64,000 bases of DNA from Burkholderia cenocepacia (GTDB lineage Bacteria; Pseudomonadota; Gammaproteobacteria; Burkholderiales; Burkholderiaceae). Both the position numbers and the translations under genes were made by a program. Where the stretch lies: NCBI RefSeq assembly GCF_014211915.1, contig NZ_CP060040.1, forward strand, positions 620,001 through 684,000. The letters run 5' to 3'. Of this stretch, positions 24,150-55,819 are shown piece after piece. The notes beneath the pieces were generated by a model. That model was not told the DNA's origin. It worked only from the letters and a program-made list of their open reading frames with translations, and made no database searches. Every line of letters starts with the position of its first letter. Within the stretch, counting starts at the first letter, position 1.

Positions 24150-24152
24150 ATC

Positions 24153-29644: not shown

Positions 29645-29686
29645 TCGCACGGGGAACGCGATGCAACCGGGCGAGGAGCGCAACGC

Positions 29687-30868: not shown

Positions 30869-30879
30869 AAGAGGCGCCG

Positions 30880-33547: not shown

Positions 33548-33663
33548 GCGGGTGCGCGGGCGGTCGTTCGCCGTGCCGGCAACGGGCCGCGCGCGTGCGC
33601 CGGCATGCGCCGGCGGGGCAAGGAATCGGGAAGGTTTCGAATCGTTGGGGAGGTCGCTCGTGA
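33544..33663 (+). other. 39-codon linking frame between Wzx and the next glycosyltransferase
   Basis: ATG 33544 overlaps the Wzx stop (ATGA), and the frame's own TGA at 33661-33663 overlaps the GTG start of the next gene (GTGA). The encoded peptide (MSGCAGGRSPCRQRAARV and so on) is Arg/Gly-rich and unlike anything I know. It may carry ribosomes across the gap rather than make a functional protein. Confidence 0.35.
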
Positions 33664-34868: not shown

Positions 34869-34884
34869 CGGGCGCCGCAACGAA

Positions 34885-34906
34885 GAGGAGGGCCTCGATG
34901 GTGTGA
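34885..34906 (+). other. Strong Shine-Dalgarno in front of a two-codon frame (ATG GTG TGA)
   Basis: GAGGAGGG at 34885-34892 is well placed for ATG 34898, which is stopped after one more codon. The frame beyond the TGA stays open to TAA at 35060-35062, but the translation is not recognisable. Either a decayed small gene or a minimal ribosome-parking frame ahead of the hydrolase gene, which itself lacks a good ribosome site. Confidence 0.3.
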
Positions 34907-35068
34907 TTCGAACGGCTCGCGGCCGGCCGGCTTCCGGACCTTGCATGTGCGGCATGGATACCGGAAAGGGGAAAGGCTTCCGCGAGCGATTTGCCGTCCG
35001 GCGGCCGATCGATTCAGCAGTCGGGCCGTCGGACGCCGTACCCATTCTTCACCGATACCTAATAGAAA

Positions 35069-36880
35069 ATGAGACCGATCATATTTGGCGGACGGTTCGG
35101 ATGGCTGCATCCGGGCAACGGGACGCGGGGCGTCGTCCTGTGCAACGCTTACGGACACGAATCCGTCTGGAGTCACGGCGGCATGCGGAATCTGGCGGAT
35201 CGCCTGTCGGCGAGCGGAATGCCGGTGTTGCGTTTCGATTACCGCGGCACCGGCGATTCCGCAGGGGCCGATGGCGCGAACGACCAGTTCGAAACGGCCG
35301 TCGACGACGTGTGCGCGGCCATCGCGCGATTGCGCGAGGAAACCGGCGTCGCACGGGTGACGCTGTGCGGCCTGCGGCTGGGCGCGGCATTCGCGTTGCT
35401 GGCGGCGGACCGATGCGAAGTCGACCAGCTCGTGTTGCTGGCGCCGGTGGCAAGCGGACGCAGCTACGTGCGCGAACTGTCGATCATGCGCAATATCTGG
35501 CTCGACCAGTTGCCGGCGCCGTTGCGCGCGGCCCAGCCGAAAGACGCGCCGCTCAACGTGCTCGGGCAGGTCTACAGTGCGGCGTTCCGTACGCGGCTCA
35601 ATGCATTCGACGCGATCGACGCGTTGAAGGACCGCACCGGTGCGCCGGCATCGAGAACGCTGATCGTCGACATGAGCGCCGGCGGCACCGACGCGCTGCA
35701 GACGCGGCTCGAAGCGCTGGGCGGCAAAGTCGAGCAAAGGCCGTTCGAAGGCTATGCGGCGTTCATGCAGGAGACGACGTTCTCCAGCTTGCCGATGCGC
35801 GTATTCGATGCCGTCGTCGACTGGATCGCGGCCACCGATGGCCGGCAGGGGCCGTCGTCGCGCGCCGTGTTGAAAACGGACTGGGAACCCGACCTGATGC
35901 TGCGCACGCCCGAAGCATGCGAGCGGCCGGTCAGATTCGGCGTGGCCGGCCGCCTGTTCGGCATCCTGTGCACGCCGCACGAGATGCACGACCGTGGGCC
36001 GGTGCTGCTGATCACGAACACGTCGGCCAGTCCGCACGTCGGCGACAGCCGGCTGTCGGTGCGGATTGCCCGTGAGCTGGCGCGTCGCGGCATCGCGTCG
36101 CTGCGCTTCGACGGACGTGGGATCGGCGACAGCTCGCCGGTGCACGGCGCCGGTTCGCCGCAAGATGAGCGCCAGCCGGTCTATTCGAGCGCCGTCGTCG
36201 AGGACGTCGCGACGGCCGCGCACTGGTTGAAGGAGCAGGGGTATCGACAGGTCGTGTCGTTCGGCATCTGCTCGGGCGCATACAGCGCATTGCGTGCGGC
36301 GCTCGCGGGACGCGCGCTGTCTGGCGTCATATCGGTGAACCTGCAGCGCTTCCACGTGCCCGACGGCATCTCGACCGATGCGCTGCGCCAGCATCGCCCC
36401 AATTCGATGGCCGGTTACCGCTCCTCGTTCTTCGAGCTGAAGAAGTGGAAGCAGGTGCTGAGCGGCGATCGAAAGATCATGCCGTTCGTCCGGCTCGTGC
36501 TGAAGCGCTCGACCACGGCGCTGGCGGTGCGGATCGGCGCGTGGCGACGCCGGATCGCCGGCTGGTCGTGCGCGGAGACGATGCCGGTCGATCCGCACGA
36601 GATCCTGCGTACGCTGCAGCGCAAGGAGGTGAGCGCGTTGTTCGTCTGCGGTGCATACGACAGCAGCCTCGATCTGGTGACGATGTATTTCGGGCCGCGC
36701 GGCAAGCGGCTGTCGCGATTTGCCGGCGCGCGTGCCGTCGTGCTCGACGATCTCGATCACAGCGTATTCGGTTCGCATGCCGCCGACGCGGTGGTCGGGC
36801 TGTGCAGCGAATTCGTCAAGGGGCTCGAATCGCGCCGCGCGACGGCGGCGACGATCATCAACGCGGAGTCGCCGGCGTGA
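35069..36880 (+). CDS. Tandem alpha/beta-hydrolase protein with atypical nucleophiles
   Basis: A 603-residue protein made of two alpha/beta-hydrolase domains. Domain 1 (about 1-260) has the strand VLRFDYRGTGDSAG but its elbow reads G101-L-R-L-G105, with Arg where Ser, Cys or Asp is needed. Domain 2 (about 285-600) has LRFDGRGIGDSS and elbow G399-I-C-S-G403, so Cys401 is the likely nucleophile. A late LDDLDHSVFGSHAAD could supply Asp and His to domain 2. Domain 1 is therefore probably non-catalytic. Related hydrolases occur in exopolysaccharide clusters, perhaps as acyl esterases or transferases for the polymer. No signal peptide is visible, so it acts in the cytoplasm. Confidence 0.75.
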   Translation: MRPIIFGGRFGWLHPGNGTRGVVLCNAYGHESVWSHGGMRNLADRLSASGMPVLRFDYRGTGDSAGADGANDQFETAVDDVCAAIARLREETGVARVTLCGLRLGAAFALLAADRCEVDQLVLLAPVASGRSYVRELSIMRNIWLDQLPAPLRAAQPKDAPLNVLGQVYSAAFRTRLNAFDAIDALKDRTGAPASRTLIVDMSAGGTDALQTRLEALGGKVEQRPFEGYAAFMQETTFSSLPMRVFDAVVDWIAATDGRQGPSSRAVLKTDWEPDLMLRTPEACERPVRFGVAGRLFGILCTPHEMHDRGPVLLITNTSASPHVGDSRLSVRIARELARRGIASLRFDGRGIGDSSPVHGAGSPQDERQPVYSSAVVEDVATAAHWLKEQGYRQVVSFGICSGAYSALRAALAGRALSGVISVNLQRFHVPDGISTDALRQHRPNSMAGYRSSFFELKKWKQVLSGDRKIMPFVRLVLKRSTTALAVRIGAWRRRIAGWSCAETMPVDPHEILRTLQRKEVSALFVCGAYDSSLDLVTMYFGPRGKRLSRFAGARAVVLDDLDHSVFGSHAADAVVGLCSEFVKGLESRRATAATIINAESPA

Positions 36881-36992
36881 TTCGATCCGGGCCGGGCTGT
36901 GTCACATGTCGAACAGTCGGCGCACGGAGGCGGTGCTACGGTAACGCATCCGTTCTCTGGCGATACCGCCCGGCTTCTACGCGACCCTGACG

Positions 36993-38153: not shown

Positions 38154-38264
38154 CACGCGCGGACGGACGAAACGACGCGGCGCGGCGATCCCGCGTTGCC
38201 GATACGAATGGAATGAACGGTATGGAGCGGCGATGATGCTGGCGAGTACGGTGGTGCACGACGA

Positions 38265-39533: not shown

Positions 39534-39569
39534 GGCGTGCCGCCGCGACACTCACGCGGGAGAAAGGTC

Positions 39570-40859
39570 ATGCGGGCATTGCGACGTATTGCGGCGGTCG
39601 CGCTGGGTGCGCTGGCGCTGTCGGCCGGTTCCGGCTCCAGCCATGGCGGCGAGCGGGTGGCAGCGCTCGCGCCGGCCAATACGTCCGGCAGCCGCGATTT
39701 CAAGGGATCGTCGAACGGGCTGCTCGCCGGCACGTCGTCGATATCGAAAATCGATGTGCACACGCTGCTGTATTCGGGCAGCACCACGCAGGTGCTCGCG
39801 CACTATCTGCCGTGGTGGGGCCCCGACCCGCGCGGCGTGAACGTCGGCTATCGGTCCGACGATCCCCACCAGGCGTTTCGCACCTTCGCCGACATGCGTT
39901 CGAGAGGCATCGACGGCGTGATCGTCGACTGGTACGGCGCGGGCCATTTCGTCGACACCGCGTGGCAGGCATCGCTGCCCGAACTGGCGAAGTTTCCCGG
40001 GATGACGTTCTCGATCATGATCGACAGCGGTTCCTTCAAGTTCAATGCGTGCCGCGGCTGCGACCTGACCGAGACGATCCTGCACAACCTCGCGTACATC
40101 AGCCGCGAATACTTCACGTCGAGCCAATACCTGCGCTACGACGGTCATCCGGTCGTGTCCGAGTTCGGGATGGATGCGGTCGGGAAGGCCGACTGGGCAC
40201 GGATTCACGCCGCATACCCCGACATCTACTGGATTCATACGTTGGCGCAGGGCTTCGATCTTCCGTACAGCAAGGGCGCGTATGTGTGGGCGCAGCCGTC
40301 GCCGCGGGCCACGCCGCAAGCGATCGGTACGCGGCGCGACCTGCTGTATCGCGAGCGCTTCTACGACATCGCGCGGAACCAGCCGCCGGGGGCGATCACG
40401 GTCGGCGGCGTGTGGAGCGGCTTCGACGATACGAAGGCATCGTGGGGCGCCGCGGCGCCGCGCTTTCTTGCGCCGTCGTGCGGCCGGACCTGGCTGGACA
40501 CGTTCAGGAGCATCAACGAACGCTACAGCGTGCAGCGGCAACTGCCGTTCGTTCAGCTGATCACATGGAACGACTACGAGGAAGGCAGCGCACTCGAAAC
40601 CGGCATCGCGAGTTGCACCGCAATCGACGCGCAGCCCGTGGGCGCGAGCGTGACCGTGCGGATCACCCATGCGGAAACCGTCGACCATCTCGAGCTGTAC
40701 GAGCAACTCGGCGACGGAACGTTCAGCCTGGCCGGCCGCTATCCGGCCGATACCACCAGCATGCCGCTGCCGGACGGCCGGGCAGGCACCTACTTCATCA
40801 AGGCGGTCGGCAAGCCGTTCATCCAGAACGTCGTGTCGACGGCCGTCGTCGTGCACTGA
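39570..40859 (+). CDS. Secreted glycoside hydrolase-like protein (GH71/GH99-like)
   Basis: A 429-residue exported protein. The signal peptide is MRALRRIAAVALGALALSAG. A TIM-barrel glycosidase resembling endo-alpha-glycanases follows: VLAHYLPWWGPDP near the start, GIDGVIVDWYGAG in the middle, and FVQLITWNDYEEGSALE near the end, where family-typical acidic residues fall. A C-terminal ~85-residue beta domain may bind carbohydrate. ATG 39570 is chosen for its GGAG and the signal peptide. In the cluster it probably trims or releases the polymer in the periplasm or outside. The exact GH family is uncertain. Confidence 0.72.
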   Translation: MRALRRIAAVALGALALSAGSGSSHGGERVAALAPANTSGSRDFKGSSNGLLAGTSSISKIDVHTLLYSGSTTQVLAHYLPWWGPDPRGVNVGYRSDDPHQAFRTFADMRSRGIDGVIVDWYGAGHFVDTAWQASLPELAKFPGMTFSIMIDSGSFKFNACRGCDLTETILHNLAYISREYFTSSQYLRYDGHPVVSEFGMDAVGKADWARIHAAYPDIYWIHTLAQGFDLPYSKGAYVWAQPSPRATPQAIGTRRDLLYRERFYDIARNQPPGAITVGGVWSGFDDTKASWGAAAPRFLAPSCGRTWLDTFRSINERYSVQRQLPFVQLITWNDYEEGSALETGIASCTAIDAQPVGASVTVRITHAETVDHLELYEQLGDGTFSLAGRYPADTTSMPLPDGRAGTYFIKAVGKPFIQNVVSTAVVVH

Positions 40860-40883
40860 CGCGCGGGCGCCAAGCCCGTTCGG

Positions 40884-42449
40884 TCAGCGTGCGTCGTCGG
40901 CCGCCGGCACAGCAAGCACGGCAGTCTTCTGCGTCGCCGGTTCGGGCGGTACGCAAGTCGCCCGCCCATACTGATCCTCGAACCGCACGATATCGTCCTC
41001 GCCGAGATAGTTGCCCGACTGCACCTCGATGATCTCGAGCGGAATCCGGCCGGGATTCTCGAGTCGATGCACTTCGCCGACGGCGATGTACGTCGATTCG
41101 TTCTCGCACAGCAGGAACGTGTCGGCGCCGCGCGTCACCTTCGCGGTGCCGCGCACGACGATCCAGTGCTCGGCGCGGTGATAGTGCATCTGCAGCGACA
41201 GCCGCTTGCCGGGTTCGACGACGATTCGCTTCACCTGGAAGCGCTCGCCGAGATCGATCGAATCGTAGTGGCCCCACGGCCGCTGCACTTTGCGGTGCTC
41301 GCTCGCCTGCGGGCGCTGGTCGGTCTTCAGGCGCGCGACGATGTTCTTCACGCGCTGCACGTCGTGCTTGTTCGCGACCAGCACCGCATCGGCTGTCTCG
41401 ATCACGACGACGTCCTTCATCCCGACGCACGCGACGAGACGGCCTTCCGAACGCACGAGGCTGTCCTGCGTATCCTCGAAGACGATCGGCCCGCGCGCGA
41501 CGTTGCCCTGGTCGTCCTTCGGCATGATTTCCCAGATCGCGTCCCACGTGCCGACGTCCGACCAGCCGGCCGCGAGCGGCACCACGATGCCTTCGATGCC
41601 GAGTTCGGGGTGTTCCGCGAGGCGCTCCATCACCGCATAGTCGATCGAATCCGCCGGACACGCGTCGAAGGCCGCCGCATCGATCCGGAAGAACGGATCG
41701 TCGGCGACGCCCGCGCGCCATGCGCTGTCGCAGGCTGCGTGGATGCCCGGCGCGAGCGCGCCGATCGCCTTCAGCCAGACCGATGCGCGCGTGACGAAGA
41801 TTCCGCTGTTCCACCAGTAATCGCCCGATTGCAGGTAGCGCTCGGCGAGCGTTGCATCGGGCTTTTCGACGAAACGCCCGATCGCGTAGCCGCCCTGGCT
41901 GCCGTGGCGGCCCGAGCGCGGTTCGCCGACCTGGATGTAGCCGTAGCCGGTCTCCGCGCGGCGCGGCAGCACGCCGAGCGTGACGATCGCGCCTTCCTGC
42001 GCATAACGCGCCGCGCGCGCGATCGCGTCCTGGAACGCGCCGACGTCGACGATCACGTGATCGGCCGGCATCACGGCGAGCACGGGATCGTCCGCGAGCG
42101 CGCTCGCATCGAGCGCCGCAAGCGTCAGCGCGGGCGCGGTGTTGCGCGCGGCCGGCTCCAGCAGGATGCGGGCAGGCGCCGAGCGGCCGTGTACCTGCTC
42201 GGCGCTCATGAAGCGATGCTGTTCGCCGCACACGAGCAGCAGCGTGTCGCCGAGCGACGCGTTCGCGATGCCGTTCAGGCGGCGCGCCGTCGCCGACAGC
42301 GGCGACTCGTTCGAAACCAGCTCGATCAGTTGCTTCGGATACTGCTCGCGCGACAGCGGCCACAGCCGCGTGCCGGAGCCGCCGGCGAGAATCACCGGCA
42401 AGATGCTCGGCAGATCGGGTTCGGGAACCGGGCGAAGGGTGCGGGTCAT
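40884..42449 (-). CDS. manC: Mannose-1-phosphate guanylyltransferase / mannose-6-phosphate isomerase
   Basis: Bifunctional enzyme (521 residues) supplying GDP-mannose. The N-terminal transferase domain has LAGGSGTRLWPLSREQYPKQ and the FVEKP motif (GRFVEKPDAT). The C-terminal cupin domain has QMHYHRAEHWIVVRGTAKVT, the isomerase metal site. It is convergent with the glycosidase gene and is co-transcribed with the GNAT gene, whose stop overlaps its start (ATGA). GDP-mannose is also the usual precursor of GDP-rhamnose and GDP-fucose, so the polymer may hold mannose or a derivative. Confidence 0.96.
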   Translation of the reverse strand: MTRTLRPVPEPDLPSILPVILAGGSGTRLWPLSREQYPKQLIELVSNESPLSATARRLNGIANASLGDTLLLVCGEQHRFMSAEQVHGRSAPARILLEPAARNTAPALTLAALDASALADDPVLAVMPADHVIVDVGAFQDAIARAARYAQEGAIVTLGVLPRRAETGYGYIQVGEPRSGRHGSQGGYAIGRFVEKPDATLAERYLQSGDYWWNSGIFVTRASVWLKAIGALAPGIHAACDSAWRAGVADDPFFRIDAAAFDACPADSIDYAVMERLAEHPELGIEGIVVPLAAGWSDVGTWDAIWEIMPKDDQGNVARGPIVFEDTQDSLVRSEGRLVACVGMKDVVVIETADAVLVANKHDVQRVKNIVARLKTDQRPQASEHRKVQRPWGHYDSIDLGERFQVKRIVVEPGKRLSLQMHYHRAEHWIVVRGTAKVTRGADTFLLCENESTYIAVGEVHRLENPGRIPLEIIEVQSGNYLGEDDIVRFEDQYGRATCVPPEPATQKTAVLAVPAADDAR

Positions 42450-43024
42450 CGGTTCGCTCCGGTATCGGCGGGTAGTCGGGGGTGAGCGCGGCCGTCGGCG
42501 CGTGCGTCGTCGTTGCGCGAGACCGAAACGGCTCGCGACAGCAGCTGACGCAGCGCGCCGGCCGCGCGGTCGGCCGACCGGACCAGGCCCACGAACGGCG
42601 CGCCCTGTTCGAGATACGGGCCGTAGGCCTTGCGGAATCCGAACTGTTTGTAGAACGCCTGACGCGGCGCAGGCACGTGCGTGCGCACCGCGGTGTCCGG
42701 CCACGCGGCCTGCGCGGCGGTGAGCGCGCGCTCGATCAGGCGTTCGAGCGTGTCGTCGTCTCGGCAGCTTTCGCTCGTCAGCACCTTGTCGATCACGACG
42801 TCCGGATCGATGTCGTCGCCGGGCAGGATGCGCGCGTAGGCGGCGACTTCCGTCGTGTCGCCGTCGCGCACGCTCGCGTAGACGTGCAGCGCGCCCGCGT
42901 CCTTGCCGTCGATGTCGAGATGCGTGTGCGCGTCCTCGACCACCAGCACGGCGTTGCGTGCGCGCAGGATTGCATAGAGATCGACGGCGCTCAGATGTTC
43001 GAATTCACAACAATGCCATTCCAT
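42446..43024 (-). CDS. ElaA-like GNAT acetyltransferase
   Basis: A 192-residue protein of the ElaA/GNAT family. It opens MEWHCCEFEHLSAVDLYAIL and has the family region VLVVEDAHTHLDIDGKDAG, then VLTSESCRDDDTLERLIERA and FYKQFGFRKAYGPYLEQGAP, the usual acetyl-CoA-side helix and exit. The C-terminal ~35 residues are basic and unstructured. The start at 43024 is set by GAGGA nine bases upstream. It precedes manC in an operon with a 4-base overlap. The acceptor is unknown. Confidence 0.85.
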   Translation of the reverse strand: MEWHCCEFEHLSAVDLYAILRARNAVLVVEDAHTHLDIDGKDAGALHVYASVRDGDTTEVAAYARILPGDDIDPDVVIDKVLTSESCRDDDTLERLIERALTAAQAAWPDTAVRTHVPAPRQAFYKQFGFRKAYGPYLEQGAPFVGLVRSADRAAGALRQLLSRAVSVSRNDDARADGRAHPRLPADTGANR

Positions 43025-45784: not shown

Positions 45785-48271
45785 TCAGCCGGCCTGCGTG
45801 GCCCGCACCGCGCGTGAGGCGTTCACGGCACGGATTTCCACCGCGGGCGGCGCGTTGTCGTCAGCCGCCGCGGGCTTCCCGTCGATTCGCAATGGAATCA
45901 GCGCGATGCGCGCCGGCGTGCCGGGCGCGAGATGGAACCAGTCGTCGCCCGGCATGAAACCCGGCGCGTCGATCTGCACGTGGCGGGCGACGTGCCGGGT
46001 GTCGATGTCGACGTGCCAGGTCTCGCCGGTGCGCGACACGCATGCCTCGATCCCCGGTTCGCGGCGCGCCAGCACGGCCGGATGCGTGCGGGAGGGGAAA
46101 TGGAACGCCTGCGACAGCAGCGTGCCGTCGTCGGCGCGCAAGGTCGCGACGACCGTATCGTGTTCGCAAGGGCCGAAACGGTACGCGTAGGTCCAGTCGA
46201 AGAAGCGGCCGAGCAACTCGGCCGAGCCGAGCCGCACCGTGTCGTACGCGGCGATCCGCACCGGGCAGCCGGCCCGCGCGACCGGCGTGCGGCCGTCGCG
46301 CAGCGCGACCAGCTCGATCGCCGCCGACAGCGGCGCCGGGCGCTCGTTGACGACGTGCACGTCGAGCCCGTTCAGCCCTTCGTCGACGAGCAGCACCTGG
46401 ATCGGCTGCAGCACCTGGCGCAGCGCATACCAGGCCGATTTCGGCCGGTGCGCGGCGTCGATCACGCCCCATCCGGCGCCTGGCATCACGTCCTGGAACT
46501 GCCACACGAGCGCGCCGGCGCAGCGCGAGCCGGCGCGGCGCCATTCGGAAAACGTCTCGCGCATCACGTCCGCGATCACCGCACGCGACAGCTCGACATA
46601 GCGCGCCGGGTCCTCGCGCCGCAGCCGGTCGGGCGCGACGTCGTAGAGCGTCTGCAGATAGTGGTCGCGGATATCGTCGAAATCCCACGACGTGCCGGGG
46701 TCGCGCGGCACGGCCGCCTTCCAGCGCGGCTCGTGCACGCCGGGCCAGCCGAGTTCGGTGAGCGTCGCGTCGCAAGGCACGTTCGCGAACGCGAGGCATT
46801 CGCTCGCGAAGCGTACGTCCGCGCGGCGCGCGTCGTCGAGCGGACGCAGGTACGCGCCGACGCCGTAGTAGTGCGACACGCGTTCGCGCGGCGTGAACGG
46901 CAGCACGCCGCCGTCGGGCGAATCAGGCACGTAGGGGACATCGGGGCGGTGCGCGGCCGCGTGGTCGGCCAGCCGGTCGGCCGTCAATTCGAGGAAGCGC
47001 TGCTTCGGCCCGAGCCCCGACATCGCGGCTTGCTGCGCGATCTCGCTGCCGCCGCACAGCACCGCGAGCGACGGCGAGGCGCCGTGACGCGAGAGAAACT
47101 GGCTCGCTTCGCGATCGACGTTGGCCGCGAACGCGGGATCGTCGAGCGCGTAATCGAAGTTCGCGAAACCGAAGTCCTGCCAGACCAGCAGCCCGAGCCG
47201 GTCGCACGCCGCGTGGAACGTGTCGGCCTCGTAGGTCATCGTGCCGCCGACGCGGATCATGTTGAAACCGGCGTCGCGGGCGAGCCCGAGCAGGTGGCCG
47301 TAGGTCGCGTCGTCCGCGTGCAGCGCGAGCGGCGCGGCGCTGCTCCAGCATGCGCCGCGCGCGAACACGGGCACGCCGTTGATGCGCAGTCCGAACCCCT
47401 TGCCGTCGGCGCCGGAATCGATCTCGATCGTGCGAAAACCCGTCGAGCCGAGCGGCCGGCGCGTAGCGCCGATATGCAGCGCGATCTCGTAGAGCGCCGG
47501 TTCGCCGTGGGTATGCGGCCACCAGCGGCGCACGTTGGGGATCGCGACGCTCGTGCGCAGCCGGTCGGCGCCGGCCCGTTCGAGCGTCGCGTGATGTTCG
47601 CCGCACGACAGCCGCGCCGCGAACGTGTCGGGCAACGGCGCGGCGAACGTCAGTTCCGCATCGAGCCAGCCCGTGTCGCCTTCGACGCGGGCCTGCAGTT
47701 TGTAATCGGTGAGAACGTGCCCGTCGGCCGGATCGAGTACGTCGACGGGCCGCCACGGGCCGGTCGGCACGTACGGCGGAAACCAGCCCGGCATGTGCCC
47801 GAACAGCGACGTGCGGATCGTGCGCAGCCCGGCCGGCTCGGCCAGCCGTGTGCGCCAGCGCGCCCGGCGCGGTGCGCGTGCGTCGCGCAGGTGCGGCGCG
47901 AGTGCGCGGAAACAGATCGTCAGCCGATGCGTGCCGTCGAGCGACACGGGCACGTCGTGCGCGACGAACATGCTGTCGGAATGGAGGATCGGCGTGTCGT
48001 CGAGCCAGGCCTGCGCGAGCGTCGCGAGGCCGTGAAAGCGCAGGATGCGCGGCCCGCGCCCGCGCAGCTCGAGGCGGTACCAGTGGTCGCGCTCGTCGAG
48101 CGACGCGGCTTCGTCGAGCCGGCCGGCCAGCGCGAGCGCCTGCGCGACCGTGCCGGGCACCGGCGCCGCGATCCAGCCGCCGTGGTCGGCAGGGAGGTCG
48201 CGCGGGTCCCGCACGGCGCCCGCGGCCGTCGCCAGCATCGCCCACGCCGGCAGGGGGCGCGCGCGCGTCAC
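45785..48271 (-). CDS. GH2-type beta-mannosidase-like glycosidase
   Basis: An 828-residue cytosolic glycoside hydrolase family 2 protein. The sugar-binding, Ig-like and TIM-barrel domains are in the usual order. The jelly-roll start GGWIAAPVPGTVAQAL and the barrel motif NGVPVFARGACWSSAAPL are typical of beta-mannosidases. The acid/base Glu falls in VLCGGSEIAQQ and the nucleophile Glu in FASECLAFANVP. GTG 48271 is the start, overlapping the DUF1839 stop as GTGA. No signal peptide is seen, so the substrate would be intracellular. It is the last gene of the carrier-protein operon, an unusual place for a glycosidase. Confidence 0.87.
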   Translation of the reverse strand: MTRARPLPAWAMLATAAGAVRDPRDLPADHGGWIAAPVPGTVAQALALAGRLDEAASLDERDHWYRLELRGRGPRILRFHGLATLAQAWLDDTPILHSDSMFVAHDVPVSLDGTHRLTICFRALAPHLRDARAPRRARWRTRLAEPAGLRTIRTSLFGHMPGWFPPYVPTGPWRPVDVLDPADGHVLTDYKLQARVEGDTGWLDAELTFAAPLPDTFAARLSCGEHHATLERAGADRLRTSVAIPNVRRWWPHTHGEPALYEIALHIGATRRPLGSTGFRTIEIDSGADGKGFGLRINGVPVFARGACWSSAAPLALHADDATYGHLLGLARDAGFNMIRVGGTMTYEADTFHAACDRLGLLVWQDFGFANFDYALDDPAFAANVDREASQFLSRHGASPSLAVLCGGSEIAQQAAMSGLGPKQRFLELTADRLADHAAAHRPDVPYVPDSPDGGVLPFTPRERVSHYYGVGAYLRPLDDARRADVRFASECLAFANVPCDATLTELGWPGVHEPRWKAAVPRDPGTSWDFDDIRDHYLQTLYDVAPDRLRREDPARYVELSRAVIADVMRETFSEWRRAGSRCAGALVWQFQDVMPGAGWGVIDAAHRPKSAWYALRQVLQPIQVLLVDEGLNGLDVHVVNERPAPLSAAIELVALRDGRTPVARAGCPVRIAAYDTVRLGSAELLGRFFDWTYAYRFGPCEHDTVVATLRADDGTLLSQAFHFPSRTHPAVLARREPGIEACVSRTGETWHVDIDTRHVARHVQIDAPGFMPGDDWFHLAPGTPARIALIPLRIDGKPAAADDNAPPAVEIRAVNASRAVRATQAG

Positions 48272-49323
48272 CGCATGGCCGACACGGGCTCCGTGTCGTA
48301 GCGCACGGGCGTCACGTGCCGCAGCGGCGCACCGATCTGCCGCGCGCACGCGACGAGGTCGCCGTACGCGGCCTCGATCGCTTCGAGCGTCGAATCGCCG
48401 CGTTCTTCCTTGCCGCGTGCGCACGCGCGCGCGAGCCGGAATTCGAGCACCATCGCTTCCGACGCGATGCGATCGCACGCGGCGCGGATCTCGGCGAACG
48501 GCCCGGTGCAGCCGCTCGCCTGCAGCCAGCGCGCATAGTGGCCGAACAGTTCGAAATTCGCGCCGAGCTGCCGCACCGAATTGAACGAATACGCATGGAA
48601 GCGCTCGAGCGGGGCCTCCGCGAGGATGGGCGCGTCGGCCTGCAACTGCCGACGGAACGCCGCGATCGGATCGACGACCGGCAGGCGCCGCAGGTGGCGC
48701 TGCAACGCGGCGAGCGACGCTTCGCACAGCGCGCGCTCGTCGAGCGGCGCAAAGCGTCGCTTCGCGCATTCGACGTACGGCGGCAGCGTCATCGGCGAAC
48801 TGCTGCCGACGAGCCCGGTGTAGTCGAAATCCTCGGCGACGTAATAGCCGCTGTTGTGGAAGTAGCCGATCTGGTGCTTCGCGCGGTCGATTGCATCGAT
48901 GCCGATCGTCGTCTTCGTGTGCTGGGTGCGGTAGCTGCTGCCGCGCGTATCGGGCAGGAACCACGCATCGACCTCGACGATCATCAGGTGGCCGCGCGCG
49001 ACCTGCGTCTCGATGTGCTGGTCGAGCGGCTCGTAGATCGAATGTTCCTGCACGACGATCCCGTAGAGCCGCTCCAGCTCGTCGTGCGGAAACTTGAAGA
49101 ACGTGAACTGGTCGCCCTCGAAATCGAGCGCGATCGTAAACGGCAGCGCCGCGTACGGATTGAGGCCCCACCACCGGAGCACCTCGAGCCACATGTCGAC
49201 GTAGCAGTTGGTCTGTTTCCAGACCATCTCCTGACTGTGCAGCGGGTGCGGCCGGTAGTGGCGCGCGCGATGGCGCACGCTCTCGAACGACGCGTCTTCG
49301 CCGTCGCGGGAAACGAACCTCAT
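48268..49323 (-). CDS. DUF1839 family protein
   Basis: A 351-residue protein of the DUF1839 family, which I know only as a companion of amino acid:carrier-protein ligases. Visible blocks are HYRPHPLHSQEMVWKQTNCY, LDFEGDQFTFFKFP, VEVDAWFLPDTRGSSYRTQH and KTTIGIDAID. Two invariant-looking Cys/Trp-containing stretches near the start might form an active site. The likely role is to take the aminoacyl group from the carrier protein, or to modify it; this is inference from context only. It overlaps both neighbours by 4 bases. Confidence 0.75.
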   Translation of the reverse strand: MRFVSRDGEDASFESVRHRARHYRPHPLHSQEMVWKQTNCYVDMWLEVLRWWGLNPYAALPFTIALDFEGDQFTFFKFPHDELERLYGIVVQEHSIYEPLDQHIETQVARGHLMIVEVDAWFLPDTRGSSYRTQHTKTTIGIDAIDRAKHQIGYFHNSGYYVAEDFDYTGLVGSSSPMTLPPYVECAKRRFAPLDERALCEASLAALQRHLRRLPVVDPIAAFRRQLQADAPILAEAPLERFHAYSFNSVRQLGANFELFGHYARWLQASGCTGPFAEIRAACDRIASEAMVLEFRLARACARGKEERGDSTLEAIEAAYGDLVACARQIGAPLRHVTPVRYDTEPVSAMR

Positions 49324-50294
49324 CGCGTGCCCCACAGCACGTCGCGGACTGCTTGCGGCCATGCGTCGATGTCGAAGCCGTGATGACGGAACAGCGCGAG
49401 CGTGAGCCGCTCGAGGCCGAAGCCGACGCAGCCCGTGTGCGCGACGTCGCCCGTCGCGGTGCGGATGTCCCACAGCAGCCCGAAATGGTCCATGTGGTAG
49501 TTGAAGCTCAGGCACGCGGTCTGGCGATCGTCGTGCTCGATCGGGATCAGCAGCTCGAACTTCAGGTTCTGCTCGCGCTGGCTGTCCGCGACGATCTTGC
49601 CGCCGCGTCCGAAGAACGGGTCGTTCGCGAGATCGATCGCATTCGGCAGGCCCAGCGACTCGATCATCCGCGTGCCGCGTTCGATCCACGTCTCGCGGAA
49701 CGAGACGATCTGCTCGGGCGTGCCGATCCGCACGTACTCGCGCATCCGGAACAACTGCATGCGGGTCGGGTCGAGCGACGGTTCGTGACGGAAGCAGTAC
49801 GAGAACACGTCGACGATGCGGCCGTCGGCAGGCAGTGCGCCCGCGCGGGCGACGACGGGATAGACGGGGTAGCACGCGGCCGGCGTCATCACGACGTAGG
49901 TCGGCTTCTGGTTCTCGGTCCAGTCGTCGCCGCGATCGAGGCATTGCAGCACGCGCTGATGCTGGCGCTCGTCGCCGCAGAACGCATGCACGCTGCCCGC
50001 CAGTTGCGGGAAGCTCTTCATGTATTCGCTGCGCTCGAACTCCATGCGGCTCATCGCCGGCGGAAAGCGCAGCACTTCGGCCTGCTGGTCGGCGCCGATG
50101 CGCGTGACGAACGCGTCGAGCGCTTCGACCACGCGCTCGAATCGTTCGCTGCGGCCGAACAGGCCCTGGATACCGGTCGAAACCAGCAGGCCCGCGTCGA
50201 TCAGCGCGTCGCGCAGCGGATTGACGCCCGCGCGGTCGAGCGGTGCGTCGGCGGGAACGGAGGCGGCGGAGGGCACGGCGAGGCGATCGTTCAC
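49320..50294 (-). CDS. Amino acid:[carrier protein] ligase (aaRS-like)
   Basis: A 324-residue class II aminoacyl-tRNA synthetase homologue lacking a tRNA-binding domain. It should activate an amino acid with ATP and load it on the phosphopantetheine arm of the neighbouring carrier protein. The atypical SerRS-like zinc site is visible: Cys141 (TPAACYPVYP), Glu186 (FRMREYVRIG) and Cys289 (AHTGCVGFGLERL). Motif 2 is FRHEPSLDPTRMQLF and motif 3 GFGLERL. The start is GTG 50294, overlapping the dehydrogenase stop (GTGA). Glycine and alanine are used by characterised family members; the substrate here cannot be read from sequence. Confidence 0.9.
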   Translation of the reverse strand: MNDRLAVPSAASVPADAPLDRAGVNPLRDALIDAGLLVSTGIQGLFGRSERFERVVEALDAFVTRIGADQQAEVLRFPPAMSRMEFERSEYMKSFPQLAGSVHAFCGDERQHQRVLQCLDRGDDWTENQKPTYVVMTPAACYPVYPVVARAGALPADGRIVDVFSYCFRHEPSLDPTRMQLFRMREYVRIGTPEQIVSFRETWIERGTRMIESLGLPNAIDLANDPFFGRGGKIVADSQREQNLKFELLIPIEHDDRQTACLSFNYHMDHFGLLWDIRTATGDVAHTGCVGFGLERLTLALFRHHGFDIDAWPQAVRDVLWGTR

Positions 50295-51487
50295 GTATGT
50301 TTCTCCAGCGTCGCAGGACGCAGCGCGAGCAACAGGCTCGCAGTGTTGGCGGCAATGCGGTCGTTGCTGATCATCAGCGGCGCCGCGTGCAGGTCGCGAA
50401 TGTGGCGGCCGATGCTGAACGGCGTGCCTTGCTTGTAGCCGGCCATGCCGCAGATCATCATCGCCTGCTGCGCGACTTCGAGCGCGGTCGCCGACACGTA
50501 GGTCTTCAGCGTATTGATCTCGGCGGCCCAGGCCATGCCGGCCGACCACGAGCGGGCCGACGCGTTCGCGTGGAGGCGCAGCACGTTGTCGACGCGGGCC
50601 TGCATCGCCTGCATCAGCGCAAGCGATTCGGCGATGCGCCGCGCGGCGGGCGACGGCGCGCCGTCGGTCTGGCGCGCCTGTGCACGGAAGAACTGGTGCG
50701 CGCGATGAAACGCGTCGCCGGCCACGCCGATCCACACCGCGGCCCACAGGATGTGCGAGACCGGCACCATCGTTTCCTCGGCGATCTTCGCGAACGGCAC
50801 CGGCAGGCATTGCACGGCGGCGCCTTGCGCGTCCAGCACGAAGCCGTTGCTGCACGTGCCGCGCATGCCGAGCGTGTCCCATTCGCCGCGGCGCGTGAGC
50901 GTATAGCCGTCGCGCAGCAGCGTGACGAGCACCTGCTCGGAAGCCGGCGCATCCGCATCGCGTCGCGCGGTGGCGAGAATGCCGTCCGCGTAGTCGCCGT
51001 ACGAGATCGTCGGCGCGGATTTGTGCAGCCGGAATCCGCCGCCGTCGATCTCGAGTGCGCACTGGCTCGCGCGCAGGTTGCCGCCGACGCCGTCTTCCGA
51101 CGTGGCCGATGCGAGCAGCCATTGGTGGCGCACGAGCTGTTGCAGGAACAGCCGGTGCCAGCCCTGGTCGGCGGCGTGGTCGACGATGCAGGCGACCTGG
51201 ATCTGGTGCATCGCGAACACCATCGCCGACGACGCGCAAGCCTGGCCGAGGATCGAGCAGGCCGACGCGATGTCTTCCAGCGACGCGCCAGCGCCGCCGA
51301 GATGGGTCGGCACCATTGCGCCGAGCAGGCGGCGCGCGCGCATCGCCTCGATCGCCTCTACGGGGCAGCGCGCGTCGCGATCGACCGCATCGGCATGCTG
51401 GGCGGCGATCTGCGCGACGGCATGCGCGGCCTCGTCGAGCCGATGCGAATCGCTGTCGGACGCGAGTTCGGGAAGCAGCGCGCTCAT
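50291..51487 (-). CDS. Acyl-CoA dehydrogenase-like flavoprotein
   Basis: A 398-residue protein of the acyl-CoA dehydrogenase fold (N-terminal helices, beta barrel, C-terminal helices). Conserved parts include LLGAMVPTHLGGAGASLEDI and GEWDTLGMRGTCSNGFVLDA. The usual catalytic Glu region near the C-terminus is replaced by FSIGRHIRDLHAAPLMISND, so the base may differ. It lies between the carrier protein and the ligase with 4-base overlaps to each, so the substrate is probably an aminoacyl-S-carrier protein, oxidised to an imine or a dehydroamino acyl group. That reaction is inferred from analogy with prolyl-carrier-protein oxidases. Confidence 0.85.
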   Translation of the reverse strand: MSALLPELASDSDSHRLDEAAHAVAQIAAQHADAVDRDARCPVEAIEAMRARRLLGAMVPTHLGGAGASLEDIASACSILGQACASSAMVFAMHQIQVACIVDHAADQGWHRLFLQQLVRHQWLLASATSEDGVGGNLRASQCALEIDGGGFRLHKSAPTISYGDYADGILATARRDADAPASEQVLVTLLRDGYTLTRRGEWDTLGMRGTCSNGFVLDAQGAAVQCLPVPFAKIAEETMVPVSHILWAAVWIGVAGDAFHRAHQFFRAQARQTDGAPSPAARRIAESLALMQAMQARVDNVLRLHANASARSWSAGMAWAAEINTLKTYVSATALEVAQQAMMICGMAGYKQGTPFSIGRHIRDLHAAPLMISNDRIAANTASLLLALRPATLEKHT

Positions 51488-51735
51488 GCGGAGTGCTCGG
51501 TGCGTTGCAGCGTGGCGATCGTGTCCGCGAGCGCGTCGATGCTGCGGAACAGGTTGCGGTTCAGCATCTCGTCGGGAATCTCGATGTTGAACTGCTTTTC
51601 GATCGCGAGCATCAGCTGGATCGTATCGAGCGAGGAAAGGCCCGCTTCGTAGAGGTCGTCCCCGTCACCGATCGAATCGATCGCGGCTTCGAGGTGGGCG
51701 ACGTGCTTCAGGATGGTTCTGATTTCGTTTTTCAC
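51484..51735 (-). CDS. Acyl/aminoacyl carrier protein
   Basis: An 83-residue carrier protein. The phosphopantetheine attachment Ser35 is in EAGLSSLDTIQLML, followed by the family's helix III (AIEKQFNIEIPDEML). I start at GTG 51735 because GGAG lies 7 bases before it and the length then matches normal carrier proteins; ATG 51795 adds 20 residues with no ribosome site. It heads the five-gene operon: its stop overlaps the next start (ATGA). Partner of the amino acid:carrier-protein ligase. Confidence 0.9.
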   Translation of the reverse strand: MKNEIRTILKHVAHLEAAIDSIGDGDDLYEAGLSSLDTIQLMLAIEKQFNIEIPDEMLNRNLFRSIDALADTIATLQRTEHSA

Positions 51736-51914: not shown

Positions 51915-52697
51915 TCATGCGCGCGACGCGGCCGGCACGCCCGAGTCGGCCGACAGGATGCGCTTCATCTCGTCGCGCACGATCGCGCGGCAGCCGCACG
52001 ACATTTTTTCGAGGCCGTCGAGGTCCGCGAGCTCGATCGAGCTGCGGTATTGGCGAATCAGGCCGAGCTTCTGGATTTCGCCGGCGGCGTCCGTGACCGT
52101 TTCGCGCCGTACGCCGAGCATTTGCGCGAGCATGCTGTGCGTCACCTGGATCTCGATGCTGCGCGTGCGGTCGAACGCCAGCAGGAACCATCTGCATAAC
52201 TGATGTTTGAGCACGTGATGACGGCTGCAGAATGTGATCTGCGACACCTGCGCCATCAGCAGCCGCACGCAGACGAACACGAGGTGGCGAATCACCGGCG
52301 ACGCATCGAACGCGGCGGCGAACACACGCCGGTCGAGCCGGTAGACGAAGCCGTCGCGGCACGCGAGCGCACGGCACGGCATCCGGCCGCTGCCGCCGAT
52401 CACGTCGTCGCAGACCACGCTTTCGCTGCCGATCTCCGCGACTTCCAGCGTCATGCCGCCGGACGACACGTACTGCAGCGAAATCGCGGTCGTGACCGGC
52501 AGGTAGACCGCGGCGAGCATCTCGCCGGGTTCGCAGAGCACTTGCCCGGATTTCAGGTGAACGAGTTGCAGGTGGGGCGTCAGTGTGAGGAGTTCGTCGC
52601 GGTCGATGGCCGCGAGAAACCGGTTGGCATCGAAGCTGTGGGAAAGCTCGATCATGCCGTTCGCATGCGCGACGGCGTCGGCGGCCTGGTGAGTCAC
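51915..52697 (-). CDS. CRP/FNR-family transcriptional regulator (first of two)
   Basis: A 260-residue regulator with a cyclic-nucleotide-binding-like domain (ELLTLTPHLQLVHLKSGQVL, MTLEVAEIGSESVVCDD) and a C-terminal helix-turn-helix (HSMLAQMLGVRRETVTDAAG). No FNR cysteine cluster is obvious. GTG 52697 has GAGGA 8 bases upstream; the longer frame adds a hydrophobic stretch unlike the family. It is a paralogue of the protein at 53619 (same length, matching helix-turn-helix MLGVRRE). The carrier-protein operon follows 180 bases downstream on the same strand and may be its target. Confidence 0.88.
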   Translation of the reverse strand: MTHQAADAVAHANGMIELSHSFDANRFLAAIDRDELLTLTPHLQLVHLKSGQVLCEPGEMLAAVYLPVTTAISLQYVSSGGMTLEVAEIGSESVVCDDVIGGSGRMPCRALACRDGFVYRLDRRVFAAAFDASPVIRHLVFVCVRLLMAQVSQITFCSRHHVLKHQLCRWFLLAFDRTRSIEIQVTHSMLAQMLGVRRETVTDAAGEIQKLGLIRQYRSSIELADLDGLEKMSCGCRAIVRDEMKRILSADSGVPAASRA

Positions 52698-53035
52698 GGG
52701 CGCATCCTCGCAGGTTGGCGGTCGCGCGTCGTTTCGGCGAATCCCGGAACGGGATTTCGCACGATCGTGCGGACTTTTGTGGATCAAAAACGGAATGACG
52801 ATACTCGCGAAAAAGGCTAGCACGCAATTGAAATCGTCCAATTCCGCATTCTGTAATTTTACAAAGTTTGACGGTTGCGATTGCGCGCAAACGTTATGCC
52901 GATTTAATAATTCATTTCGCCAGAATTAATCATCCTGAAATGGAATCGTGTGCTCGCTTGTCATTCGATGTCGATAGGGAATCAATCGAACGACGTGCGC
53001 ATCGTACAGCGAAAGTGTCGGAAAGGCATTGAACA

Positions 53036-53424: not shown

Positions 53425-53441
53425 TTGGCACGTAAATCGCT
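53425..53441 (+). promoter_or_regulatory. Sigma-54 promoter upstream of the berA-like gene
   Basis: TTGGCACG-TAAA-TCGCT: the -24 element TGGCACG is perfect, the -12 element is TCGC (one change from TTGC), and GG and GC are 10 bases apart. Transcription would begin near 53452, about 165 bases before ATG 53619. The BerB-like activator encoded at 44352 is the obvious partner. Confidence 0.75.
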
Positions 53442-53618
53442 TATTCGGGCTGGCGTGTAGAGAACGGGACAGTCGACTCAATCGGGCAATGACAAACCGA
53501 TGGTCAGTCGGATTCAGGGTTGTGGGCCGCAACCGCTGTCAATGTCCTGGTGCGCATCGCGATAACGAATTCCGTGCATGCGGTTGCAGGCGGCGCGGAC
53601 GATAAAAGGGATACAGAC

Positions 53619-54401
53619 ATGCTTCATCTTCACTCGAGCTATTCGGCGAATGCCATTCTTGCTGCCCTCCCGGAGGACAGCATCCGCACCATCGCACCGC
53701 ATCTCGAACTGGTCAGGATCAAGGCCGGGATGCTCAACCGGGTCGGCGAGCCGATGCGTCATCTGCATTTTCCGACGACGGCGATGATGTCGGTCCAGCA
53801 CCTGATGGAGGATGGTGCGATGGTCGAGGTGGCGGTGGTGGGCCGCGAGGGCGTGGTCGGGCTGGGGACGCTGGTCGGCGGCATCGCGGCGTCGAACCGG
53901 GTCGAGGTGCGGATCGGCGGGATGGCTTATCGCGTGCCGAGTTGCGTGATGCGCGCCGAATTCGAGCGGTCGCCGCAGACCTATCGGCTGCTGCTCAACA
54001 CCTGCCAGGCGACGATGGCGCAGATCTCGCGCAGCGCGCTGTGCAACCGGCACCACTCGGTCAGCGAGCAGCTCAGCCGCTGGCTGCTGCTCGCGCACGA
54101 CCGGATCGACGGCGACGAGCTGGCGGTCACGCAGCAGACGATCGCGAACATGCTCGGCGTGCGGCGCGAGGGCGTGACGGAAGCGGCCGGGAACCTGCAG
54201 GAAGCCGGGCTGATCCGGCAGCGCCGCGGCCGCATCACGGTGCTCGACCGCGACGGCCTCGAACATCACGCCTGCGAATGCTACGACCTGATTCGCGCGG
54301 ACTATCGCCGGTTGCTCGGGACGCGCGGGAATGCGATGCCGGCGACGGTTCGCCCGCGCATGCCGGAAGGGCACCGCGGATTCCCCGCACACGGTGCGTG
54401 A
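53619..54401 (+). CDS. berA: CRP/FNR-family regulator, BerA-like
   Basis: A 260-residue regulator with a cNMP-binding-like domain (IRTIAPHLELVRIKAGMLN, AMVEVAVVGREGVVGLGTLV) and helix-turn-helix (QQTIANMLGVRREGVTEAAG). ATG 53619 follows AAGGG at 8 bases. Counting genes from the sigma-54 activator, its position matches BerA (Bcam1349), a c-di-GMP-binding activator of the biofilm polysaccharide genes in B. cenocepacia. The alternative is that the paralogue at 51915 is BerA. A sigma-54 promoter lies upstream. The priming transferase gene begins 2 bases after its stop. Confidence 0.75.
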   Translation: MLHLHSSYSANAILAALPEDSIRTIAPHLELVRIKAGMLNRVGEPMRHLHFPTTAMMSVQHLMEDGAMVEVAVVGREGVVGLGTLVGGIAASNRVEVRIGGMAYRVPSCVMRAEFERSPQTYRLLLNTCQATMAQISRSALCNRHHSVSEQLSRWLLLAHDRIDGDELAVTQQTIANMLGVRREGVTEAAGNLQEAGLIRQRRGRITVLDRDGLEHHACECYDLIRADYRRLLGTRGNAMPATVRPRMPEGHRGFPAHGA

Positions 54402-54403
54402 CG

Positions 54404-55819
54404 ATGCAGTCGATGTCCGGTGGAACGAATGCGATGCGGCGTGCCGCGATCGCGGCGGCCGACGTCGTGCTCGTGATGGCCGGCGCGCTCGTCGCGCAGG
54501 CGGCGTCGGGTCTCGGCTGGCATGCGCTGTCCGACGCGCAGCGCGGTGCGATCGCGCTGCTGTGCGTGCTGACGGTGGCGCTGCTGCCGCGTTACCTGCG
54601 CACCGTGCGCGGCGGCGTGGCGGTGCAGGGTGGCGCGCACGTGCTGACGCACACGCTGGTGGCGGTCGTTTGCGCGAGCGTGCTGACGGTGGCCGGCACG
54701 ATGTGGATCATGAATCGCGGCGGCACGGTGACGACCCGCTGGATCGTGCGCACGGTGCTGGCCGGCGACGCGGCACTGCTGCTCGGGCGCGCGGCGCTGC
54801 TGGCGCTCGCGCTGACGCGCGGCGACTCGCGGGCGCGGCAGCGCCGCGTCGCCGTCGTCGGGGCAACGGCGTACGGGCGCGTGGCGATCGAGCGGATGCA
54901 ACTGGCGCCGAATGGCCCGTTCGTCGCCGCATGCGTATTCGACGACGATGCCCAGGCCGTCGCGGGCGGTATCGGCGGCGTGCCGGTGATCGGCGACTGG
55001 AACGGGTTGCGTGAACTGATTCGCGGCGGCGGCATCGATGAGGTCTGGCTCACGCTGCCGATGTCGCACGAGTGGCGGATCCAGCGCATCGTGCGCGAGC
55101 TGCGCGACGAGTTCGTCGAGTTGCGGTTGTTGCCCGACGTGCGGCAGATGTCGGTCGTCGATCGCTCCGCGACCGACGTGCTCGGCATGCCGGCGATCAA
55201 TCTCGCGACCACGCCGCGCTCCGCGCCGGAGCTGTGGGCCAAGTTCGCGTTCGACCGGCTGTTCGCGTTCGGCGTGCTGATTCCGTTGCTGCCGCTGCTG
55301 GCGCTGCTGGCGATCGCGGTCAAGCTGTCGTCGCCGGGGCCCGTGCTGTTCAGGCAGCGCCGCAAGGGGGTCGACGGCCGCGAGTTCGATATCCTCAAGT
55401 TCCGGACCATGCGCGTGCATCGCGCGCAGCCGGGCGTCGTGCGGCAGGCGTCGCGCAACGATTCGCGCATCACGCGCGTCGGCGCGTTCCTGCGCCGCAC
55501 GTCGCTCGACGAGCTGCCGCAGTTCTTCAACGTGCTGTTCGGGCAGATGTCGGTGGTCGGCCCGCGTCCGCACGCGATCGAACACGACGACTTCTACCGG
55601 CAACTGATCGACTGCTACATGTACCGCTATCGCGTGCGGCCCGGCATCACCGGATGGGCCCAGGTGAACGGCTATCGCGGTGAAACGCGCAAGGTCGAGG
55701 CGATGGAGGCACGCGTGAAGTTCGATCTGTTCTACATGCAGAACTGGAGCTTCTGGTTCGACATCAAGATCATCCTGCTGACGGTGGTGCGCGGCTTCAT
55801 CGGGCGCAATGCGTTCTGA
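54404..55819 (+). CDS. Undecaprenyl-phosphate sugar-1-phosphate transferase (WcaJ type)
   Basis: A 471-residue membrane enzyme that starts the repeat unit by moving glucose-1-phosphate (or another hexose phosphate) to undecaprenyl phosphate. It has four N-terminal membrane helices, a CoA-binding-like region (VAVVGATAYGRVAIERMQL), then a fifth helix and the catalytic domain: FRQRRKGVDGREFDILKFRT, RTSLDELPQFFNVL, and RYRVRPGITGWAQVNGYRG. The EPS cluster itself has no priming enzyme, so this gene, linked to the berA-like gene, most likely serves it. ATG 54404 is 2 bases after the regulator's stop. Confidence 0.93.
   Translation: MQSMSGGTNAMRRAAIAAADVVLVMAGALVAQAASGLGWHALSDAQRGAIALLCVLTVALLPRYLRTVRGGVAVQGGAHVLTHTLVAVVCASVLTVAGTMWIMNRGGTVTTRWIVRTVLAGDAALLLGRAALLALALTRGDSRARQRRVAVVGATAYGRVAIERMQLAPNGPFVAACVFDDDAQAVAGGIGGVPVIGDWNGLRELIRGGGIDEVWLTLPMSHEWRIQRIVRELRDEFVELRLLPDVRQMSVVDRSATDVLGMPAINLATTPRSAPELWAKFAFDRLFAFGVLIPLLPLLALLAIAVKLSSPGPVLFRQRRKGVDGREFDILKFRTMRVHRAQPGVVRQASRNDSRITRVGAFLRRTSLDELPQFFNVLFGQMSVVGPRPHAIEHDDFYRQLIDCYMYRYRVRPGITGWAQVNGYRGETRKVEAMEARVKFDLFYMQNWSFWFDIKIILLTVVRGFIGRNAF

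Follow-up and report, generated by a model that had tools for sequence, protein, structure and literature searches.

A carrier-protein operon in the Bep exopolysaccharide locus of Burkholderia cenocepacia: a proposed route for attaching a modified amino acid to a sugar

Positions 45,785 to 51,735 of a 64,000-nucleotide stretch of Burkholderia cenocepacia DNA (contig NZ_CP060040.1; the whole stretch is called the window below) hold five minus-strand genes, encoding a carrier protein (CP), an acyl-CoA-dehydrogenase-fold flavoprotein (ACAD), an amino acid:[carrier protein] ligase (LIG), a DUF1839 protein and a family 2 glycoside hydrolase (GH2). We propose that this operon encodes a carrier-protein route by which a sugar receives a modified amino acid while the biofilm exopolysaccharide is being assembled, and put the probability of this reading at roughly 0.55. 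A first-pass annotation of the DNA is confirmed as to the operon and partly supported in its interpretation; it overlooked a further gene of the window, outside the operon, that recurs as a sixth partner and encodes a tandem alpha/beta hydrolase (ABH).

The proposed pathway has four steps. LIG would activate a small amino acid, to judge from its family glycine or alanine, and load it on CP, a step for which homology is strong. ACAD may then oxidise the carrier-bound aminoacyl group, a classical alpha,beta-dehydrogenation being less probable than oxygenation or the formation of an imine. Judged by its modelled fold and by the conservation of Cys and His, DUF1839 would take the aminoacyl group on Cys40 and transfer it to a cytoplasmic sugar acceptor in the manner of CcbD. 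Finally, GH2, its pocket opened around C2, might act on a beta-glycoside bearing the aminoacyl substituent, and the Cys-type ABH might edit or relay the acyl group at the flippase step.

The five-gene operon

51484..51735, minus strand: CP, 83 aa (PF00550, 43 bits; NF005480; Ser35 in GLSSL)
50291..51487, minus strand: ACAD, flavoprotein without both usual catalytic Glu residues (PF02771/PF00441)
49320..50294, minus strand: LIG, class II aminoacyl-tRNA synthetase (aaRS) core, 324 aa (NF005479)
48268..49323, minus strand: DUF1839, predicted carrier-protein-dependent aminoacyl transferase (PF08893; candidate nucleophile Cys40, invariant His135)
45785..48271, minus strand: GH2 with a Ser-Glu acid/base dyad, GH2_14-like, probably cytoplasmic (PF22666)

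Coordinates and junction reads agree that the genes are joined by overlaps at all four junctions (ATGA, GTGA, ATGA and GTGA in operon order), as the first-pass annotation had said. The 83-residue CP with its GTG start at 51735 is supported, because model position 1 of NF005480 aligns at that residue. Library scores rule out chance (PF00550 43, PF02771 42 and PF22666 42 bits; NF005479 560 bits, cut-off 357; PF08893 426 bits, cut-off 22.5), and the annotated gene identities stand by these Pfam and NCBIfam scores, except that “beta-mannosidase-like” holds for the glycosidase as distant homology and not beyond.

Carrier protein and ligase

CP scores 145.6 bits against NF005480 (cut-off 72), and its best PDB match, 4h2w_C, is an aminoacyl carrier protein. 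The phosphopantetheine Ser is kept in 120 of 121 sequences, the exception being locus L132. For this and the other conservation counts, fetched loci were compared with the six window proteins; the loci are mostly from related species and not independent. Locus L001 and hits covering less than 70-75% of the window protein were left out, as were 13 short loci (L082-L094) from the counts of the CP Ser, Cys40/His135, gene order, overlaps and ABH co-occurrence. LIG matches the NF005479 equivalog with 560.3 bits and the PDB entries 4h2w and 3mey with 321 and 315 bits, so that LIG and CP both match the solved ligase-CP complex 4h2w; its sole Pfam match, PF00587, marks the class II aaRS core only. In the register of the 4h2w/3mey alignment, C141, E186 and C289, presumably the zinc ligands, are kept in 125 of 125 sequences. 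The loading of an amino acid on CP appears well supported by this homology, much as the annotation had proposed. The ligase and carrier families are those of the Bradyrhizobium and Agrobacterium systems (3mey, 4h2w; NF005479); unlike them, the present module has four overlaps and lies in a locus whose regulators are, in B. cenocepacia, effectors of cyclic di-GMP. Peptide synthesis was considered and rejected, the operon having no condensation or further nonribosomal peptide synthetase gene.

The flavoprotein

Spelled out, the version of the first-pass annotation has alpha,beta-dehydrogenation on the carrier (2 units of mass lost), DUF1839 as a hydrolytic release enzyme, and a beta-mannosidase-type GH2 that acts on the polysaccharide or a glycosylated product. 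Taken as a whole, we consider this version improbable, for reasons that begin with ACAD. Its best NCBIfam match is the FadE16 acyl-CoA dehydrogenase family at 102 bits (cut-off 600), followed by SfnB at 72 bits, and its PDB sequence matches are the nitrososynthase DnmZ (54.9 bits), KijD3 (48.6) and the acyl-CoA dehydrogenase 4m9a (48.1). A fold search with the AlphaFold2 model (pLDDT 84.9) ends in a tie, dehydrogenases being top by VIA Z (42.2 versus 40.7 for the monooxygenase DszC) and TdsC, also a monooxygenase, by Foldseek E-value. Acyl-CoA dehydrogenases presumably carry their catalytic Glu at one of two usual positions, C-terminal (MCAD-type) or in helix G (IVD-type). In the register of the 4m9a alignment, which ends a few residues short of the C-terminal Glu position, that position is Ile373 in 113 of 116 sequences and the helix-G position is His245 in all 116; a catalytic Glu was found at neither of these assumed positions. 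These residues speak against a canonical dehydrogenase, on which the family and fold scores do not decide. Oxidation on the carrier is plausible, and it could still be a dehydrogenation, since a fold neighbour, ColB1, is titled as dehydrogenating carrier-bound cysteine; however, the expected change of -2 Da is doubtful because other residues sit at both usual Glu positions. Glycine, moreover, has no beta carbon, and therefore its dehydrogenation product would have to be an imine.

DUF1839

DUF1839 shares 97% identity with records from B. anthina and B. cenocepacia. Its predicted fold is papain-like with a C-terminal helical part and groups with the transferase CcbD, which argues against the annotated release; the protein looks more like an acyltransferase dependent on a carrier protein than like an enzyme of release. 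Cys40 is kept in 114 of 130 sequences and His135 in every one. With the papain-fold enzymes of the CcbD/LmbD, CtaG, AziU3/U2 and BtrH type it has in common the predicted fold, a conserved Cys and His, and a CP encoded next door; it differs in having no detectable sequence match to them, the likeness being one of overall predicted fold.

Several observations weigh against this assignment and the transfer built on it. The top structural match is AziU3/U2, which we take not to be a plain acyltransferase, and a profile of 30 DUF1839 sequences found no match to CcbD or CtaG among PDB sequences. Two loci, L036 and L048, keep Cys40 with no ligase nearby. The product of CtaG is an amide, not an ester. 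The same holds for CcbD, which joins proline bound to a peptidyl carrier protein to the amine of an amino sugar (PMC12945683). A C-(T/S)-H arrangement, different from Cys40/His135, has also been proposed (PMC10318531).

The literature found on DUF1839 by name gives a papain classification only, and other accounts may exist in print. To our knowledge, from a search that was not exhaustive, no papain-fold relative in the CcbD/CtaG group acts in polysaccharide synthesis.

The loci L036 and L048 (Caballeronia sordidicola S170 and Burkholderia sp. S171) are decayed modules in which DUF1839 is intact, ligase and CP were not detected, the flavoprotein is at most a trace and GH2 survives as fragments only. 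At L112, L113 and L136-L140 the DUF1839 of the module has lost its Cys, and a separate second DUF1839 of the same genome keeps it; the two copies are possibly a pair of pseudo-enzyme and active enzyme. Lone Cys-less paralogues that keep the invariant His occur at L141-L145 and L147, with no module gene in the fetched stretch.

The GH2 enzyme

The PDB relatives of GH2 are of beta-mannosidase type, and both catalytic Glu residues, E410 and E491, are present in 101 of 101 sequences. The Asn-Glu dyad of GH2 beta-mannosidases, seen in the aligned BtMan2A, is absent, the residue before the acid/base being S409 in 100 of the 101. A Ser-Glu motif and the lack of a signal peptide (the latter in two tested members) define the GH2_14 subfamily (PMC12243196); the window enzyme has both features, in so far as a crude hydropathy scan found no strongly hydrophobic N-terminal stretch. 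BmGH2_14, which also comes from Burkholderia, shares the dyad and has no evident signal peptide, and is presumably the GH2 of this locus. It has weak p-nitrophenyl (pNP)-beta-galactosidase activity (kcat 2.8 per min), and GH2_14 enzymes show no detectable activity on mannobiose or mannotriose, while their larger pocket may take substituted sugars (PMC12243196). A beta-mannosidase role is not supported by the Ser-Glu dyad and these substrates, and a beta-mannosidase acting on the polymer is rejected on the dyad together with the all-alpha backbone of the Bep exopolysaccharide. The backbone is a difficulty for our own proposal as well, for the substrates of GH2 enzymes are beta-D or alpha-L glycosides (PMC12243196, Table 1) and Bep is all alpha-D. 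The glucosaminidase CsxA likewise has Ser before its acid/base residue (PMC6566704), and is not among the PDB sequence matches of GH2.

Genome searches found one GH2 homologue, beside DUF1839, in each of four module genomes, and none in seven genomes without the full module. In the loci compared, GH2 turned up only with DUF1839, and with the ligase save for the fragments in L036 and L048, a pattern that suits an enzyme working on what DUF1839 makes.

The exopolysaccharide locus and the sixth partner

51915..52841, minus strand: Crp/Fnr-type regulator, Bcam1348 by order, just upstream of CP on the same strand (PF13545)
53520..54401, start uncertain, plus strand: Crp/Fnr-type regulator, BerA by gene order, Bcam1349 (PF13545; table of PMC9684580)
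44352..45743, plus strand: VpsR/sigma54-type regulator, BerB by gene order, Bcam1342, convergent with the operon (PF00158, PF20161)
40884..42605, minus strand: ManC-type GDP-mannose enzyme of the Bep cluster (PF00483, PF01050)
53942..55819, open frame with the true start downstream, plus strand: WcaJ-type sugar-phosphate transferase (PF02397, 222 bits)
35069..36880, plus strand: ABH, Bcam1334, becK by order, inside the Bep cluster (PF12146, two stretches)

The Bep cluster occupies approximately positions 22650-42605 of the window. The locus table of PMC9684580 gives BerB as BCAM1342 and BerA as BCAM1349, and because six genes lie between them there as in the window, the operon corresponds by order to Bcam1343-1347. 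In the becA-R cluster of B. pseudomallei, exactly six genes lie between becE (cyclic-nucleotide-binding) and becL (sigma54 regulator), the second of them, becG, being a flavoprotein (PMC5507470). The window module likewise stands between Crp- and sigma54-type regulators with shared exopolysaccharide genes, and is by order that of the bec/bep locus (PMC5507470, PMC9684580). Genome G083 (stretch L135) has the same layout, with CP, ACAD, LIG, GH2 and ABH between Crp-type and BerB-type genes and a DUF1839 match between ligase and GH2. Gene order between the two regulators, ABH, ManC and a biofilm role are common to becA-R and to bepA-L/Bcam1330-1350 of B. cenocepacia; the five-gene operon falls outside the 12-gene bepA-L definition, and the portions of the bec/bep literature consulted give it no enzymatic role. 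Bcam1343, 1344, 1347 and 1348 are unmentioned in PMC3584217, and Bcam1343 and 1348 in PMC5552954; other accounts in print are possible. A WcaJ-type gene lies in the fetched stretch of 35 of 49 loci (L032-L081 other than L034), a count from crude frames; locus layouts based on such frames were rechecked.

In the published text on the pellicle screen (PMC5507470), only becF, becM and becO of the 18 genes were missed, although becF was present in the library, and therefore becG-K were recovered. The becG insertion gave an optical density of 0.84 (wild type 1.25) and smooth colonies, and insertions in module and exopolysaccharide genes alike gave smooth colonies (PMC5507470). Polarity within the bec operon could possibly underlie these phenotypes, and becF would by order be CP, so that its absence from the pellicle matches may count against our proposal or reflect a small target. 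Nevertheless, locus, gene order and published insertion mutants together support the link to a polysaccharide that the first-pass annotation had drawn.

ABH resembles exosortase-A-associated hydrolases 2 and 1 (TIGR03100/TIGR03101), below the cut-offs. Its first domain has no Ser or Cys nucleophile in 38 sequences (Arg in 30, Gly in eight); in the second, Cys401 in a GxCxG motif is kept in all 38, and Asp531 and His564 are invariant in 13 of 13. Similar Cys boxes occur in PHA synthase. Table 2 of PMC3584217 likewise annotates Bcam1334 as TIGR03100. ABH lies in the same fetched stretch at 34 of the 108 loci with ligase, DUF1839 and GH2, many stretches ending before the site of ABH in Burkholderia; in annotated plasmid loci it directly follows GH2 in Mycetohabitans and Azospirillum and is close by in both Rhizobium loci. 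At L117 (Rhizobium sp. NLR16a), and in close relatives at L095 and L097, ABH makes up the C-terminus of a larger protein, about 1100 residues long, and is preceded there by 13 hydrophobic segments. The front part at L117, the one such protein run against Pfam, is a Wzx-type polysaccharide protein (PF13440), and all three fusions sit between two glycosyltransferase genes. This flippase fusion is the best evidence from sequence that the system may work on a lipid-linked glycan.

Acceptor and linkage

The published Bep repeat unit consists, as described in PMC7084887, of four alpha-linked neutral hexoses with neither amino acid nor amino sugar, which weighs against our proposal. Extraction of the polymer used 0.3 M NaOH, and the measurements were made at 50 C in 0.3 M NaOD (PMC7084887). 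Esters should not survive such alkali and amides should, and therefore the conjugate is a molecule other than Bep unless Bep bears an ester; since the repeat unit offers no amino sugar, a link to Bep as the acceptor would have to be an ester that base cleaves. We tentatively suggest, as a specific form that is rather unlikely as it stands, that DUF1839 would esterify the lipid-linked repeat unit with the oxidised aminoacyl group in the cytoplasm, before flipping, that GH2_14 and the flippase-linked Cys hydrolase would proofread the decorated sugar, and that alkali would have stripped the decoration from what would natively be an aminoacyl-ester polymer.

The conjugate may instead be another molecule: DUF1839 would acylate the amine of an amino sugar with the oxidised aminoacyl group, GH2 would release or trim the resulting glycoside, and the product, diffusible or lipid-linked, would merely be co-regulated with Bep in Burkholderia. 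Such a stand-alone pathway is a possible but not a likely explanation. It agrees with the amide that CcbD makes on a sugar amine (PMC12945683), with the Ser that GH2 shares with CsxA (PMC6566704), with the lack of amino sugar in the Bep unit as described (PMC7084887), and with modules outside evident polysaccharide clusters: among the PLSDB entries, whose tables are incomplete, for the Caballeronia plasmid (L118) the tables list no polysaccharide gene less than 15 kb away, and for the Azospirillum plasmid (L116) only a family-9 glycosyltransferase and a sulfotransferase. These two plasmids count against a role in exopolysaccharide assembly, and a stand-alone metabolite fits them as well. It is opposed by the position of the Burkholderia modules within exopolysaccharide loci, where the WcaJ-type gene recurs, by the fusion of ABH to a flippase, and by the smooth colonies that module and exopolysaccharide insertions share in the account of PMC5507470. 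We retain decoration of a sugar during exopolysaccharide assembly as the preferred reading.

Distribution of the module

The full set of five genes is present in 107 loci, of which 75 are named genome records, five named plasmids and 27 further genome stretches, with identical gene order and strand in all of them; the named genera are Burkholderia, Paraburkholderia, Caballeronia, Mycetohabitans, Azospirillum and Rhizobium. The four junctions, in operon order, overlap in 97, 34, 84 and 56 of the loci, and all four together in 31 (28 named Burkholderia, one further genome of the same genus and two Paraburkholderia). Among 398 genomes sampled across the phylum, the ligase exceeds its cut-off in 28 and DUF1839 occurs in 16, each of these 16 having the ligase. 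Among 120 genomes of the family, DUF1839 occurs in 45, of which 42 have the ligase over cut-off; the exceptions (G006, G036 and G098) keep CP, flavoprotein and DUF1839, with no adjoining ligase and no GH2 genome-wide. Twelve genomes of the phylum sample have the ligase over cut-off and no DUF1839. In the eight inspected, the flavoprotein adjoins the ligase every time, and none of DUF1839, GH2 and ABH was found in the fetched stretch. Five genomes of the family sample are of this kind: two have CP, flavoprotein, ligase and ABH in a row (L129, L130), two have ligase and ABH with no flavoprotein detected (L127, L128), and one has a ligase fragment only (L131). A DUF1839-like signal of 62-67 bits in L127 and L128 came from a profile of stop-to-stop frames, was absent from later comparisons and is not trusted. 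From the loci with and without DUF1839 we conclude that CP, flavoprotein and ligase form a frequent but not obligatory core, to which DUF1839 and GH2 are an added part.

The bare core in the eight inspected loci would suit a scheme in which CP, ACAD and LIG turn carrier-bound glycine into another building block, such as a glyoxylyl or iminoacetyl group, and leave to DUF1839, GH2 and ABH no more than the editing of mis-loaded intermediates; an alpha/beta hydrolase of the Cys type could indeed be a thioesterase. We regard this as very improbable, given the fixed order with DUF1839 and GH2 in every five-gene locus, the transferase-type fold predicted for DUF1839, and the loci L127, L128 and L134, where ligase and ABH occur with no ACAD detected and the trio is thus not obligatory.

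The ligase of L134 (G046) is a second one in that genome, sited apart from the five-gene module and flanked by a ManC gene and a tandem hydrolase. At L124-L126 the flavoprotein and ligase stand beside genes that resemble those of homocysteine or sulfur metabolism, as judged from N-termini only.

Relation to earlier work

Carrier-protein routes to aminoacyl decoration of a surface polymer have a precedent in D-alanylation by DltA/DltC, from which the present operon differs in its aaRS-type ligase, flavoprotein and papain-type transferase and in having no MBOAT gene. Aminoacylation of a surface sugar by this very neighbourhood was proposed in 2010, when the ligase was noted together with an acyl carrier protein, a redox enzyme, a conserved unknown protein and a glycosidase (PMC2922099), and the central idea of the first-pass annotation is therefore not new. 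Within the literature searched, the new points are the CcbD-type fold predicted for DUF1839, the tendency of Cys40 to occur with the ligase, the GH2_14 signature of an operon enzyme, a flavoprotein lacking the catalytic Glu, the association of the tandem Cys hydrolase with the module and its fusion to a flippase, and the argument from alkali loss. One recurrent unit of a biofilm locus unites ligase, carrier, CcbD-fold enzyme, GH2_14-like enzyme and Cys hydrolase. The pathway would provide a testable role, in the synthesis of Burkholderia biofilm glue, for an amino-acid-loading enzyme that has long lacked an explanation; it suggests what a DUF family might do, and if true it explains why alkali-extracted Bep may miss part of the native structure.

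Other features of the window

Upstream of the operon there is no evidence for a sigma54 promoter, the window holding 68 matches where 71.8 are expected. One site with a single mismatch (53426-53440, plus strand) lies upstream of the BerA-type gene, with matches in the window at chance level overall. An OafA-type membrane acyltransferase (PF01757; 36993-38153, plus strand) adjoins the tandem hydrolase, and Mycetohabitans (L115) has a different PF01757 protein ahead of its module. Between an exopolysaccharide glycosyltransferase gene and ManC, positions 39537-40859 (plus strand) encode a protein with a sub-threshold GH71 match. Outside the exopolysaccharide locus, an open frame at 10397-12517 (plus strand) has an N-terminus like that of a C39-peptidase peptide ABC transporter.

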